The translations under genes were made by a program, and so were the position numbers. Under the pieces are notes generated by a model. It worked only from the letters and a program-made list of their open reading frames with translations. It did no database searches and had not been told where the DNA came from. DNA of 64,000 bases. It comes from Xiphophorus maculatus. Taxonomy: Eukaryota > Chordata > Actinopteri > Cyprinodontiformes > Poeciliidae. The stretch covers positions 30,443,453-30,507,452 of the forward strand of contig NC_036445.1 in assembly GCF_002775205.1 (NCBI RefSeq), read 5' to 3'. Shown one piece after another: positions 47,262-63,393 of this stretch (position 1 is its first letter; every line of letters begins with the position of its first letter).

Positions 47262-50200
47262 TCAAACACTGGTCTTGTTAATCTGGGCGACTTCATTCAG
47301 GTAGGCGATGAATAACTTGGTTCCTTCGAGGTAGTTGTATCTGCAAAATAAAAAAGTCTATTTTGTGCATTTATTAAAATTATTCAACTCAGTTGCACAT
47401 TCCTTTGATTCGGACTATGCTATTTTTAATAACTGTACAGTATTTTATTTATTAACTTTGCCCTTACTGTACACTGTTACTCCTAAATTAATTTTATATA
47501 TAGTATTATATTTGTTATCTACATGTGTGATTACCTGTCACTTCCCTAATATTACACCAGATGTTCCCCACTGTGGGACAGTAAAGCATATTTCTATTTA
47601 ATCTTTCATTCAGAAACCTCAGTGAGTTTTCACATGCATCTACATAAGAATGACTTCAAAGGAGGAAAACTAAACTTTTAGAACCGACTGACCAAGCGGC
47701 TGAAATTAATCTGACAGAAAATCTGTGGAGTCACATAAGGGCACGTAGCTTCCAACAGTGTCCTTGGGCAAAAGAGACCAAAACTGAACAGAATTAAGCT
47801 TATCTTGTGAAAAAAAAAGGAAATTAGAGTAGTTGTTAGGCATGAAGTGTGTAAAACCTGCTCATTTTCTCATTCTGGGAGTGCATTCCATCATCAAAGC
47901 CTCCAATGGGCATCATGATGATGCTTTTCCCCGTCACATCCTGGAAGGTTCTGGCAATGGGGATGGTCCCACCTTCACGGATTAGATCAGGATCCACATT
48001 GAACACTGAAAGAGAGCCAATATGTATCATGTATGTTCAGTATAACTCAAATGCAAAAACTCTTTGTCTATTGTATGTTCTTCAGAGTTGGAAGAAAAAA
48101 CAACAAAGCATTTTCAAAAGCCCTAAATACTTTTACAATTTCACAAATAAGCACAACATCTCCTGTTAGGTTAACAAGCTTCTGTAAAGCCAAACAGTTC
48201 AGGTAGAAGAGAACTGAAGTAAAACATATAGCTGTGTGCAGTACAGATAATTTTTTTCTACCTATAATGGCTCTAAAAGGCTGTTGTAGGATCCAGTCCC
48301 TGGAAAGCTGAAGTAGCTTTCTTACCTCTCTTGATCGCTGCCTTTCCAGCTTCATACAGAGGGTGCTTAGTGTCAGCCAGCCAGGGCTTGGCCCCAATCA
48401 CCATGGTAACTTTCAGCTTGTTAGGACTCTTTCTCTTAGCAAACACAGAGTGAAGGTAGTCCGTCACCTAAAGCACAAAAAGGAGACTTTAGTAAAGCAA
48501 AGCACTACATAAATCAACACTCTAAAGCACTCATATATGCTACCTGTTTCTTGACCGCTGCTGGGTCCATGTCAGGGACTTGTCTTATTGAGAACTTAGC
48601 AGTAACCTTAGCAGGGATGACCGTCTTTGTGCCGGAGTCAGAGAAAGCCCCCTCTATACCATGGATGGAAACAGTGGGGTAGCGCCACCTATGCGCCAAC
48701 AAGTCCACCTTTGGAGGAGCAATACAGAGGCAACCCCTTGTTGAGTCGGGAGAAAACTCGGGTTTTTTTCTGACTTGACTTTTTACTACCTTGTTGTTGT
48801 ACATCAGGTGGCTGACGCCAGTCTTGTTCTTGTAATTGTCCACGTCAAACTCAATATCCTGATACATTTTCCATTCTTCATCCGACAGAGGAGCCACTGC
48901 TTCCCGGATCCCCGGAATCAGAATCTTTCCACTGGGGCTGATGAGTGTGTCTGAGAGAAAAGTGACCATAAAGCAACTCAGGATTTTTTTTACGATTTTT
49001 CTTGTAATTTCCCCCAATATAAAACATTAGCTGAGAAAAGCATTCAAATATGACTATTAAACCATAGTTTACGATAACTGGTAAGTTATATTTTACATCC
49101 CTGTAGAGAAATTTTGACCCATTCATGTTTGCAGAATTGTTTTAATTCAGTCACTTTGGATTCCCCCATCATCCCAACATGCTACAGCATTTCACTCAGT
49201 TTGAATTTGACTAGATCATCCTAAAACTTCCATTTTGATTTCAGCTAAGACCGTCATAATATCAACACTACGTTTGACTATTGGTGTGATATTCTTTTTC
49301 TGAAATGCAGAGTTAGAGGGAAGTTAAAAAGAAGTACCGCTTTTTCCTCATCAGTCTACAGAATATTTTCCCAAAGTTCTTGAAGACTGTCAAGATGGGG
49401 TTTTTTTTGTGAAGATGAGACAGATCTTCGGTCAGAAGTTGTTTTTGCCCTGGAAGTTTCACTTTTCTGCTACTTGTCCATGTTTTCTTGATTTGTGGAA
49501 AGTGGTTCTACCTTGTGGTTCTCTGGACTCACTAAAAACGGTTTTCTTTTTAGGCCAGTAGATCTCTGTATCTTTGTTTCTTCTCTGCTCTTCGCCTTCT
49601 TTATTAGCTTTAGATGTGATAGGCTGCTTTTTAAAGTCTTTTAGCACATTTCATGTTGACAGCAAGGTTCTATTTAAGTGATGTTATTCTACAGGTTTGG
49701 GATTAATTAGGTCTGGGTGTGCTCACTGAAATTAAACTCACTGTTTTAGAAACAGCAAGTTTTTTTAAACATATCAGTTAATTCCTGATTTAACAAAAAG
49801 GGGTTGCAATGACTTTATCAAAGGGTGTTTGGTTTAGGTAGATTTTTCCCTTAATGAATGAAATCATTGTCTGAAAACAGTTTTTCATATTTGCTCATGT
49901 TATCTTTCATAGCAACATTATTTGACTGTCACAAACATTATCGTGTGGAAAAAAAGAAAATTTGGAAACCAACGGTAGCTAAATACACCAGATAATTTAC
50001 TGCAACAACATATAGGTTTGAACATTTTTTAACAATGATGATTTCTTACTGAAGAGATTTGTCAGGAGGCTCTTGATTTTATTTTTAAATCTGACAAAAA
50101 TGTTTGTCCACATTATAAACCAATTCACTTCTTATTTCCCTAACTTAGCTAGCCATTTCTAAACACGCAAGTATTTTAATGGATGTTTTCCTTAGAGATC

Positions 50201-52993
50201 AAAGGGTACTGCTCCTTTAGCCCTTCAGCTAGTTCACTGGGGAGTGTCTTGATGAGAAATCTTTATTCTTAAAGGAAAACAGCTGCGTAAACTACCAAAG
50301 GGAACAGAAAAGCAAATGAACAGGGCAAAGTGTGAGGATCAAAGAAAGACGCCTTTTAGACCCACCAAGAATGCCAATGAGGTCAGTCATTGGTTCGATC
50401 ACAGTGCCTCCATAGACACCAGAATGTAAGTCTTGTTTAGGGCCTTCAACCTACAAACACACAACATAGTAAGAATCAGATACAGAGAGAAACGAGTCAA
50501 GAAAGAATTCTACAACCTCTGCAAAGAAGTAGCAGTTCCCTCTGGTGCCATAGGTTAGGGCTGGCCGTCTGCTCAGCCAACCACAGTCAGAAATGATGAT
50601 GTAGTCCACATCGGAGAAGAAGGTGTCTCTCTGCGCCAGGATCATTGAATCCAGGCCGTTAGAGCCTGTCTCCTCCATACCCTCAATGAGAAACTTCACA
50701 TTCACTGGCAGGTCCTGGTGGATGCCAGAAGTAGAGTTTAAGAACAAATGCAGTAATTGTTTGACATACAGAAATATAGCCATTTGAAGTGAAAACTATG
50801 TTTACATAATACATAATGTTGTCTCTATAGGGGTCGGTGTGTTTTCTCTCACCATGCTGAGGGCTTGGTAAGACTGAACGGCGTGGATCCAGGCCAGAAC
50901 CGGAGCCTTGTTGTCTGATGTTCCTCTTCCATACAGATTACCTGAAGGTACAGTGCCATAAAACATATTTATTTATTTATGACACTACAACTAGAATTTG
51001 CTGAAGGTCAGGAAAATTTAAATGCAGATCACAAATGATGTCATTTTTGAGATGTTTCAAACAGACATAATAGGTATCTTTGGACTGATGTGTGAAAAAT
51101 AATTCCACAAGAAGAAATCATCATTCAGTCAGTTAAAAATCAGGTAAAAAGCTGTATAAAGAACATAAAGGTGACTACCGTTGATATCTGTCAGGTTGTA
51201 GGGATTGGTAGCCCAGCCGTCCTCCAGCTTCGCCGGCTGAACGTCCACATGACCGTAGACACACACTGTGTGTTTGCTGGGGTCACTCCCAAACTGAGCT
51301 GTCACTACTTTTGGCAGTGCTATTGTTTGTCCACTTGGAAGCTGCATTTTCAAAGGCATGGTTGGTATTCCCACATTTCTACAAAATGATACATTAGCCA
51401 CCTGATTTGGAAATAATATGGCACAATGTGAACCAGTACCAGGCGGTGTTGATGTGTGTTTACGCATTTGGCAGAAGCTTCTATCCACAATAACTTACAA
51501 ATGAGGGTATAACAGTAAAGTTAAAACAATAGCTAATTCAAATTCAAAATTCAAAATTACTTTATTGATCACAAAGGGAAATTAAATGTTGTAACTCATT
51601 CATTCAAATTCTTCAAAGAGTTATTGTAGCTGTTGATGGCTGTTGGCAGGAAAAACGTCCTGTAGCAGTCTGTCTTACAGTGAACTTAACTTAATCTCCT
51701 GGCCATAGCCTCCTTTCTGATCAAGTTCAAAGTACCCCACTAATTCCACCTTTCACTTTATTGTTCTCGTTGTGGAATAAATGTCGGATCATTAACTGGT
51801 TTTCCATAAAGTGGCTGCCACTGGGTCTCAGGTGGAGCAGAAATGAAAGGTAATTGGTGAGCAGGGAACACTGAAAGGCTGCATGTTTAGATTCAGTTTG
51901 AATATGGGATGCTTTTATCCAGAAGGTGATATTGTAAATTGGGTCAACGTTTGAAAATGTTTATGAACCTGCTGTTAACTGTTAGCTCCTGGCCTTCAGA
52001 AGGTTTGTGCTTGGCTGTTCTGGTAAATCAAGCTGCAGTTTTGTCATCTCAGGTATATTAATGTAGACATAAAGCTGTCCAAAGGAGCAACCCCTGCAGA
52101 ATTGTTATTAGCCTACTGAAGTAAAAACTACAAACTCCAAATTCTCAAAGAGAAGTTATAAAAGGGAATCACTTTAGCAGAGACCTGGGGGTTTCGTCAC
52201 TGACCTCTTGCTCTCCGATATCAACCAGTTGTACCATTCCTCCCATCAGTCTCAGCTTCTCAGCCACCAGCTCCATCATGCGGTGCAGGTCTGGTCTTCT
52301 CAGAATGTTGCTCGAGTCACTTTCAATTGCAACCCACTCCCTCAGAACCTGGCGCACAAATCAAAGTCTCATTGTGAATGAGCTATAACTTTTAATCAAT
52401 CCAAAGAAAGTTTATGCTGATATAACAGAAAGTTATTCTGTTGAATAAGTGAGGTGAGTCCTTCTGTAAGCAACTAATACCCACATCTTCAACAAATCAC
52501 AATGTTCTTCCTTCTAACTTTTATGTCAGACCTGTCCTCACATACCTGTGGACATGAACTATGGAGCACTTTCATGAAACAGAACTCAAACAAATGAAAT
52601 CCCTAAGGAGAACCTGCTGTCATTGTGCACTGTGGTGGAGACACAACCATAGCCGAACCATGAGGGTGAGCGGAAGATCCTGCAACAGAAAACCTGCTCC
52701 CACTTTTATTTGAGCTTATTGTTCATAGGTGCAAATTACTTGCATTGGCTGGACCCAATGAGTGTGGTTGATCAACATGTAGTCAGAGCAATCAGCTTTG
52801 GCGAGAGATGAGGCAAGTAGTATGTCAAAAAGATGAGCAGTAAGATGGAGAATCAGCACCATCAGTGTTTCAAGTTTGTCACCTCAACATGTTCTTCCTG
52901 ATGGTCATCAACGTACTGCGCCAGCTCGGTGTACGGGAAAGCCTGGCAACAGGAAATGACCAGCAGGATGAAGGGGACGGTTTGAAGATTCAT
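47262..52993 (-). CDS. cndp1: Carnosine dipeptidase 1 (secreted M20 metallopeptidase), 11 coding exons
   Basis: Hydrolyses carnosine and related Xaa-His dipeptides outside the cell, using two zinc ions. Exons (minus strand): 52993-52883, 52348-52205, 51341-51179, 50941-50853, 50714-50517, 50450-50366, 48950-48790, 48708-48544, 48467-48326, 48005-47858, 47340-47262. All phases agree and give 494 codons, near the 507 of human CNDP1. Residues 1-18 form a signal peptide (hydrophobic core [11 protein letters not shown]), which points to CNDP1 rather than cytosolic CNDP2. Metal ligands are H116, D149, E184, D212 and H461; catalytic D118 (GHVDVQP) and E183 (GMEETGS); substrate histidine H244 (LHSGVYGG). 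N-glycosylation motifs (NLTD, NKTG, NKTS) fit secretion. Oddities: Cys213 follows D212 where human CNDP1 and CNDP2 have Asn, and the donors after exons 1, 5 and 10 are weak (GTGACA, GTTGTA, GTTTTA). The start ATG directly follows the acceptor TTCCACTAG. Confidence 0.95.
48709..48789 (-). other. cndp1: CNDP1 intron 7, 81 nt, in frame and without a stop
   Basis: Lies between MYNNK and VDLLAHRW. It has a GTAGTA donor and CCAAAG acceptor, is divisible by three and is open throughout. If retained it would add 27 residues (VVKSQV...APPK) to the protein. Family alignment says the spliced form is the normal one. Confidence 0.85.
49020..50365 (-). other. CNDP1 intron 6, nothing distinct
   Basis: The largest intron between coding exons (50365 to 48951, 1415 nt). 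AT-rich, with no recognised repeat or embedded gene. Confidence 0.6.
51535..51720. repeat. Interspersed repeat in CNDP1 intron 2
   Basis: ATTCAAAATTACTTTATTGA, then GTTGATGGCTGTTGGCAGGA and CGTCCTGTAGCAGTCTGTCT. I recognise this arrangement from a repeat dispersed in many fish genomes; the class is uncertain. The rest of the intron is unremarkable. Confidence 0.5.
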
Positions 52994-56164: not shown

Positions 56165-56660
56165 CAGGGTTTCCCCTCTATGCCCGGTGATCTTTAATAC
56201 TACTGGCAGTGTTAAAGATGCATTAATACATCTTTGTGTTAAAGAATGTTAAGCTGACAATTTATGTGGTTTTAGTAGCTGTTCCATTTCGTGGCTATTA
56301 AGGTTTTTAAATAAGCGCCACAAAGACAGTTTTGCTTGCCCAAACTTTATGGGACGGGTTTTTCTGCTCTCAGCGCGGATGCGCGCATTAATCTTAGCTG
56401 ACTGTAGATAAAACATTTCATTATGTGCAGTTTGGTGTGTCACTGCAAACAAATAAAATAAAAACCAACCCGTGTGCTGTGTGACAATGAGGCGAGCGTG
56501 AAAGCTCCTCCACGAACAGAACCACCAGCTCACTAACGCACCAGCTAAGCAGGAATTCAGACTTTATCAGCGCAGACACAGAGTCAGCATGTTGAGACTA
56601 AACGCACAGAAGTAAAGCCTGCTGGCCTGCCAGGCTTACGATACACTGGGGGAAACCCTG
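56165..56660. mobile_element. hAT-like non-autonomous element
   Basis: Ends are inverted repeats CAGGGTTTCCCC (from 56165) and GGGGAAACCCTG (to 56660). It is 496 bp, non-coding, with G/C-rich patches. An 8-bp target duplication could not be confirmed. It abuts the P-type transposase relic and supplies the last codons and stop of its final open frame, so it probably cut that gene. Confidence 0.55.
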
Positions 56661-57165
56661 AGTGTCAAATTATGTCTAATCTTCTCCAGTGTCTTTGCGA
56701 ACAATGTGTGCAATGGTTGACACCTTTGGAGGTTGCTGTGTTGAAGCTCCAGTATCTCAGCTCTCAGCAGCTTCACAGTGCCCTGTGATGGAATCACAAG
56801 GGCAACCATGTTCAGGGTTAGGAGGTGGTAGTTCTCATCAAATGATGATGACGTAACATTTCTGACCAGCTCACGCGACACAGCAGTTTTCATAGAATCT
56901 GCTACGAATCCTGCTGTATAGACCAGAGCATTTTCCACCAGATCACCAAACTTAGTTGGAAGATAGCCATGGTCGCACACAACAGCTGAAATGGAGATTG
57001 TTACTCTTCAGCAATTCAAGCAGAGGACATCTAAAGGTGACAGGTACACGTCATCATGTTGGGCAGCCACATTGCCTGTCCCACTAGGTGAGCCACCACA
57101 TCGAACCATCAGACGTCCTGGAACTGGCATGCAGATGGATTGTTACTCCAGCCATCTAGATTACA
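56661..57165 (-). pseudogene. P-element-type transposase, C-terminal relic
   Basis: Minus-strand fragments in family order: WSNNPSACQFQ (about 57155), then after a frameshift RLMVRCGGSPSGTGNVAAQ up to a stop near 57007, then in another frame HGYLPTKFGDLVENALVYTAGF (from about 56974) and LVIPSQGTVKLLRAE. These match the part of THAP9/P-element transposases that follows the catalytic core (NNPSA..QF, VENALVYIAGF, GGLV.PS). The frameshift, the stop and the abrupt end at the hAT-like element at 56660 show that it is broken. The catalytic DDE region that should precede it is absent between 57165 and 57286. Confidence 0.75.
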
Positions 57166-61893: not shown

Positions 61894-62210
61894 ACACCAA
61901 AGCGCTGCAGCTACAGTTCTGTGAGCGTCTATTTTGATGTTACAGAGTCTCCTTTCTGTATAAATGAAGTAACGGTTCCATGTCGTTCAACCCCTCTTCG
62001 GAACTAATCGCTTCTCTTTATTATTTTATGTGGAAATACTTCCGCGGAGTTCTTACGACGGTCTCCGGGTGAACACAGCTCTTGGGGAGCCCACAGCACA
62101 GCGGCTTGCAGCTGCAGATCTGTCCGCTGTGTGATGAGTTTTCTCTGATGATCTTCAGCAGCTCTAAGTGAAGAGCACCATTACGGATGCATGACTTATT
62201 CAAGCTCTAA
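61886..62210 (+). other. Series of upstream ORFs in the TAF2 leader
   Basis: Short ATG frames before the main start include 61886-61924 (MAEHQSAAATVL), 61937-61963, 61980-62072 (31 codons with stop) and 62187-62210 (MHDLFKL), whose stop lies 6 bases before the main ATG and in the same frame. Whether all are transcribed depends on the true start site. Confidence 0.5.
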
Positions 62211-62216
62211 TCAAAG

Positions 62217-63393
62217 ATGAACAAGAAGAAGGATAAAGGATTCGAAAGTCCACGACCTTTTAAATTATAAGTATTCTGTTCTACGTTGCAAGAAATCAGA
62301 ATGAAAGAAAATTGATTTCCAGTTGTGTTCAGAATAGTCACCGTGTTGCATGTTGCTAATATTTACTAGTGTTTGTCACATTACTTACGTGTTAATATTA
62401 TTTGGTTATTGCTTTTACGACCCATCAGGTGGTGTGCATCAACAACATCAATTTCCAAAGGAAGTCTGTCATTGTGAGTACTATTCTTAGTGGGGGATTT
62501 TTACATTCCAGGTCTTAAAGAAGACCAGAAAAGGGGCAGCATTCGTTTTATCCATTATCTATTAATCTTTTTATCCATCCATATGATTTTCCCCTCATAC
62601 TTCTGTCCATTTGCTTTCTTACAGTCTAGTTTTTCAGGTTAATTAATTAAAACCTTCCCTGTGAAGGAATATTATCGAAAAATTCATACTTACAGTGGCT
62701 TACAAGGTTCAACAAAATGCAAAACTTCAACACAACAGCAAAAGCCAGAAGAGGATTCATGCTAACATGAGAGTTATGACACATTAGCTGGCATAACTTC
62801 CACTTTAACCTAACGCACAACACAAAAACAAAAGGCCACAACACAACAACAAAAGGTTACAATGGATGTTATGCTTAAAAAAAAAATCCCTATGGTCGCC
62901 TAGGAGGGTCAAGAAAATGCAAAAGCCACAACAGAATTCATTCAACAAAGGTTTTGATAAACTTTAAAATAACTATAACATTTCTGATCTGACACATGAT
63001 AATTACATTATGCAAAGGAAAATTACTAGTTACATATTAAAATAGCAAATATTAATTCCTATTTTCAGTTTGAAATGTAGACGGAGCAGCAAAAACAATT
63101 TTCTAAGCTTCAGTAATCATTTCTTTTAATACCCTTTAAGTATTTGTTTTTAACCAGATAAATGAACCTCAAATCATTTGTATTTTTCTAGTGATAGCAG
63201 TGACTGACCTCTGCCTCCTCACTGTGCCGCAGGGTTATGTGGAGCTGACCATTTTTCCCACAGTGGTCAACCTGAACAGGATCAAGTTGAATAGTAAACA
63301 GTGCAGAATCTACAGGGTCAGAGTCAACGATCTAGAAGCCCCTTTCATTTACAACGACCCCACCCTTGAGGTGTGCCACAACGAGTCCAAGCA
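62217..63393 (+). CDS. taf2: TFIID subunit 2 (TAF2), exons 1-3, partial
   Basis: TAF2 is a core subunit of TFIID that helps bind the initiator of pol II promoters. It has an inactive M1-aminopeptidase fold. Exons on the plus strand: 62217-62266, 62419-62473, 63233-63393; the rest lies beyond the window. Translation: MNKKKDKGFESPRPFKL, THQVVCINNINFQRKSVI, then GYVELTIFPTVVNLNRIKLN and on to NDPTLEVCHNESKQ, nearly the same as vertebrate TAF2 N-termini. The start is set by an in-frame TAA at 62208-62210. Exon 2 to 3 joins at phase 0 (ATT|GGT) with GTGAGT and CCGCAG; exon 3 ends in phase 2 at GTAAGT (63394). Exon 1 to 2 is phase 2 and needs AT-AC borders: TT|ATAAGT and TTTTAC|G, giving Leu (TTG) in KLTHQ. 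It is divergent from the THAP gene and shares its upstream region. Confidence 0.95.
62267..62418 (+). other. taf2: TAF2 intron 1 with AT-AC borders (152 nt)
   Basis: The donor reads ATAAGTATTC, not the ATATCC of the U12 class, and the acceptor is a pyrimidine-rich GCTTTTAC. The GT at 62271 would leave an in-frame TAA just before it, and no AG exists where the reading frame needs one. The borders fit the rare U2-type AT-AC class. Confidence 0.85.
62474..63232 (+). other. TAF2 intron 2
   Basis: AT-rich. 62690-62950 contains repeated CAACAAAA/CAAAAGCCACAACA phrases (a low-complexity purine-rich stretch), otherwise nothing. Confidence 0.7.

Follow-up and report, generated by a model that had tools for sequence, protein, structure and literature searches.

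TAF2 intron 1 of Xiphophorus maculatus: an AT-AC intron with a U2-like donor

The window analysed here, a 64 kb stretch of the Xiphophorus maculatus genome, contains on its + strand the start of TAF2, a gene whose product is part of the general transcription machinery (Table 1). Translation of the joined exons 1 to 3 gave 89 residues, which matched human TAF2 in the PDB (30ff_DB) with an E value of 7.7e-51. The reading frame of exon 1 opens at an ATG at 62217, with an upstream in-frame stop at 62208, and agrees with the human N-terminus (DKGFESPRP). A model extended past the window encodes 888 amino acids, is interrupted by 20 introns, contains no stop and reaches approximately residue 899 of the human protein. 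The assignment to TAF2 made in the earlier note was thus supported by a sequence match along the gene as far as that residue. When the 89 residues were searched against the 704 Mb genome, a single match was obtained, that of exon 3 (query residues 35-89); no second TAF2 copy was found with this N-terminal query, a result that rests on exon 3, given that a match to exon 1 or exon 2 by itself would be too short to be listed.

Table 1. Features of TAF2 around intron 1, with intron 12 of the extended gene model
Feature	Position	Strand	Description
TAF2 exon 1, coding part	62217..62266	+	MNKKKDKGFESPRPFK plus 2 bases; intron phase 2
TAF2 intron 1	62267..62418	+	152 nt, AT-AC borders, major-spliceosome-like
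5' splice site ATAAGTATT	62267..62275	+	+2 to +8 fit the U2-type consensus
Candidate branch adenosines	62387..62395	+	motif match only
Pyrimidine-rich stretch	62399..62418	+	14/20, ending in the 3' splice site TTTTAC
TAF2 exon 2	62419..62473	+	starts G-ACC-CAT-CAG (completes L, then THQ); ordinary GT-AG intron next
TAF2 exon 3	63233..63393	+	GYVELTIFPTV...
TAF2 intron 12	75232-75472 (window coordinates continued past its end; L010:2232-2472)		GT-AG, donor GTATCCTT

Inspection of the intron 1 borders revealed the junctions ...CCTTTTAAATT/ATAAGTATT at the 5' end and ...TTGCTTTTAC/GACCCATCAG at the 3' end, confirming the position, borders and length that had been proposed for this intron. Joining 62266 to 62419 restores KLTHQVV, as in the human protein at that place, and through KLTHQVVCINNINFQRKSV the fish and human residues (30ff_DB) are the same. 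It had also been argued that a GT donor at 62271 would take in an in-frame TAA, which held true, and that no AG acceptor precedes the THQ codons, which calls for a small correction: AG dinucleotides exist upstream, the nearest ending 49 nt before the end of the intron.

The join was examined with two scans. In a dinucleotide-blind comparison, candidate joins near the ends of the neighbouring exons were scored against a human TAF2 sequence, residues 13-100 of which agree with 30ff_DB. The AT-AC join 62266/62419 tied for first place with a TA-CG join lying one base over (62267/62420), which yields the same mRNA; the human-identical KLTHQVVCINNINFQRKSV was obtained only with one or other of these two, and GT-AG and GC-AG borders were absent from the joins of that length. 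A second scan, covering last exon bases as far as 62271 and first exon bases between 62275 and 62439, returned 418 stop-free joins in which VCINN was kept, none of which was GT-AG or GC-AG; the upstream AGs gave no such join either. Across both scans, no alternative with GT-AG or GC-AG borders was found for intron 1. The + strand of the 64 kb window contains the octamer ATAAGTAT a single time, as the intron 1 donor, and the other strand contains it four times; from base composition, the chance of finding it together with AC at the two peptide-restoring joins was estimated at approximately 5e-6.

The other 19 resolved TAF2 introns were all GT-AG and served as a control for the blind procedure, which placed GT-AG among the top joins in 16 of them, a count that includes intron 11, for which the target was out of register (top score -5) and GT-AG was among the ties. 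For introns 8, 10 and 12 the equal-length blind join gave no solution; they were resolved from a list restricted to GT-AG joins, with the peptide checked, and hence do not constitute blind tests.

The earlier note had described the intron 1 donor as U2-like rather than U12-like, and the letters at +2 to +8 supported this view. The donor ATAAGTAT differs from GTAAGTAT in its first base alone, and over +3 to +8 (AAGTAT) carries U2-type letters at six of six places and U12-type letters at two. U12-type AT-AC introns, the donor consensus of which is ATATCCTT, have the same terminal dinucleotides as TAF2 intron 1, but its donor departs from that consensus, agreeing at four of eight places, two of which are the AT itself. 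According to PMC2831892, U2-type AT-AC donors are characterised by G at +5 in combination with either A at +4 or T at +6, letters that ATAAGT carries. The score of the intronic part of the donor (+3 to +6) exceeded those of 16 of the 18 TAF2 GT donors taken as U2-type; with positions -3 to -1 added the score was 2.06, higher than only 4 of the 18, and the exonic side (ATT) does not pair with U1. In a duplex model, the energy of ATAAGTAT paired with the U1 end was -4.5 kcal/mol, compared with -2.0 for the U11 end. In the same model the full U2 consensus paired with U1 at -14.1, much more strongly than the intron 1 donor, and the U12 AT-AC consensus gave -5.4 with U11 and +1.3 with U1.

At the 3' end of the intron, two candidate branch adenosines were identified, one at 62387 in CTTAC (31 nt from the intron end) and another at 62395 in TTAAT (23 nt from the intron end), and downstream of either the AC encountered first is the terminal one. 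Near the acceptor, the best match of intron 1 to the U12 branch motif TTCCTTRAY was 6 of 9 places, a count that separates introns poorly, as among the 20 introns 14 scored 6 (intron 1 included), four scored 7 (introns 3, 12, 16 and 19) and two scored 5.

Sodium-channel and SYCP2 genes of the same genome were used as further controls. Ten sodium-channel loci were fetched and the donor was located in nine, where the codons for NFNQQKKK-like residues were followed by ATAAG in all nine and by ATAAGT in seven; at L048 and L051 the AT-AC donor reads ATAAGA. Eight acceptors were found, all ending in AC, and the junction after VDSR had ordinary GT donors. From exon order, we take the fish site to be that of SCN4A intron 21. 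Like TAF2 intron 1, this U2-type intron is AT-AC with an ATAAG donor, but it lies in another gene, is of phase 0 rather than 2, and has AAG before the donor.

In the blind comparison with an LGG target (Nav1.4-like), AT-AC was the sole top join at three of eight loci (L046, L049 and L050), and at the remaining five an isoleucine read from ATA was preferred. With an FGG target, AT-AC was the sole top join at four (L044, L045, L048 and L051), tied at three and came second at one, L053 (51 versus 53). Both F and L are found at the next residue in solved channels, and AT-AC therefore explains seven of the eight loci under one target or the other, the F-or-L target having been chosen after the first result; L053 is explained by neither. 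At the tenth locus, on C21 (L052 plus L057, 16,901 bases), no NFNQ, IFMT, GGQD or KKYYNAM frame was detected. Beside the L046 locus, a second sodium-channel locus (L047, C16:2824200-2827500) had kept the ATAAGT donor, with changed residues (NFNQRKPK) and a gap before the donor, and no acceptor was seen in the stretch fetched. It may be a degenerate tandem sodium-channel copy; the stops in its tblastn alignment fall at the margins of exons and could belong to introns.

The SYCP2 intron, AAG/ATAAGTATT...GAGTAC/ATGG, is presumably SYCP2 intron 5. It resembles TAF2 intron 1 in its AT-AC borders and identical donor, and differs in gene, in length (88 nt) and in the AAG before the donor. In the blind comparison its AT-AC join scored the same as a TA-CA and an AA-AT join; joins of that length with GT-AG or GC-AG borders were not found. 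The nine bases ATAAGTATT are common to TAF2, SYCP2 and the sodium-channel locus on C6.

A second unusual donor was encountered within TAF2 itself. The intron 12 donor GTATCCTT carries U12-type letters at six of six places from +3 to +8, compared with at most three of six in each of the other 19 introns. The sequence CCCCTTAAC, 13 nt before the end of intron 12, matches the U12 branch motif at seven of nine places. As introns 3, 16 and 19 score seven too, this match counts for less than the donor does. Matches to the U11 and U12 RNA families above the curated cut-off were found in the genome, so that a minor spliceosome probably exists in this species. Judged by these sequence features, TAF2 seems to combine a U12-type intron (intron 12) with a U2-type AT-AC intron (intron 1).

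In the literature, TAF2 in connection with an AT-AC, minor or U12-type intron was found only in PMC8280824 (2021), and a search for TAF2 with AU-AC found nothing. In a figure legend of PMC8280824, TAF2 intron 1 is given as one of the major (U2-type) AT-AC introns analysed by RT-PCR in HeLa cells, and the text, with reference to that figure, reports that 85 major AT-AC or related introns all failed to respond to CENATAC depletion. SYCP2 intron 5 is likewise given there as a major AT-AC intron, in the only source found for SYCP2 with AT-AC. The requirement of SCN4A intron 21 for a major-type spliceosome is stated in PMC2831892, and the mapping of AT-AC junctions by TopHat in PMC4176328. TAF2 is absent from the main texts, as available, of PMC2831892, PMC7367187, PMC10639083, PMC12363858 and PMC4176328. 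The intron in the figure legend of PMC8280824 is in the same gene, is intron 1, is AT-AC and is called major; it belongs to another species, and its positional identity with the fish intron is assumed. As human TAF2 intron 1 is in print as a major AT-AC intron, at least in that legend, the fish observation is not new but is a conserved example of an intron previously described for the human gene. It places a very rare class of intron in a core transcription gene of a second, distant vertebrate.

We consider it very probable that intron 1 of this orthologue of human TAF2 is a U2-type AT-AC intron, handled by the major spliceosome. This confidence derives from the donor, the reading frame and the human report, which carry the odds despite a weak branch-site argument. 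A degenerate U12-type intron, removed by the minor spliceosome, would also have AT-AC borders, and the full U12-type donor of intron 12 means that TAF2 uses that machinery, if intron 12 has been read correctly. This reading of intron 1 is nonetheless very unlikely, given the agreement of ATAAGTAT with ATATCCTT at four of eight places and two of six beyond AT, and the classification of the human intron as major in the legend of PMC8280824. Its best U12 branch match of six of nine, shared with most TAF2 introns, is a poorly separating count and was no help, and the U12-type reading was rejected on the donor.

It is more unlikely still that an upstream alternative first exon is joined to CAG/GTGGTG, or that the AT-AC borders result from an error in the assembly. 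An acceptor-like CAG/GTG site does exist at 62425/62426, but its use would leave idle an exon 1 frame that matches the human N-terminus, whilst an assembly error would need to have produced matching errors at both borders. Either account is further opposed by the same kind of intron 1 having been reported, in the above legend, for the human gene.

Under the U2-type reading, TAAGTAT at +2 to +8 would be recognised by U1 and U6, the branch site at which U2 pairs would lie 23-31 nt before the acceptor, and the terminal A and C of the intron would replace the usual G and G. Joining 62266 to 62419 gives the conserved TAF2 N-terminus. From the human-gene report and the consensus, we infer that RNA of this species would be spliced at 62266/62419 by the major spliceosome. 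At 152 nt, the intron offers a short natural substrate for study.

It has been proposed, in PMC2831892, that U2-type AT-AC introns descend from U12 AT-AC introns and are then trapped, the path running through replacement of C by G at +5, followed by A at +4 or T at +6. The ATAAGT of TAF2 intron 1 would be the letters in which that path, as set out there, would end. The U12-type donor of intron 12 is compatible with the suggestion that intron 1 may be a converted U12 intron. We tentatively raise the possibility, which we regard as rather doubtful, that the U2-type AT-AC introns of the unrelated genes TAF2, SYCP2 and the sodium channels have been frozen on almost a single donor, ATAAGT(ATT), since before the split of fish and mammals, and that TAF2 intron 1 was formerly a U12 AT-AC intron. 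If this were true, a single gene would display the starting point of the conversion put forward in PMC2831892, in intron 12, along with its trapped outcome, in intron 1. Should intron 1 descend from a U12 intron, TAF2 would be well suited to tracing U12-to-U2 conversion without a GT-AG stage.

Elsewhere in the window, the open frames at 51129-51488 and 56636-56980 on the - strand matched no Pfam family. A third open frame on that strand, at 48514-49017, matched the Pfam M20 peptidase dimerisation domain (E 9.4e-8) and, by eye, looks like a carnosine-dipeptidase exon.
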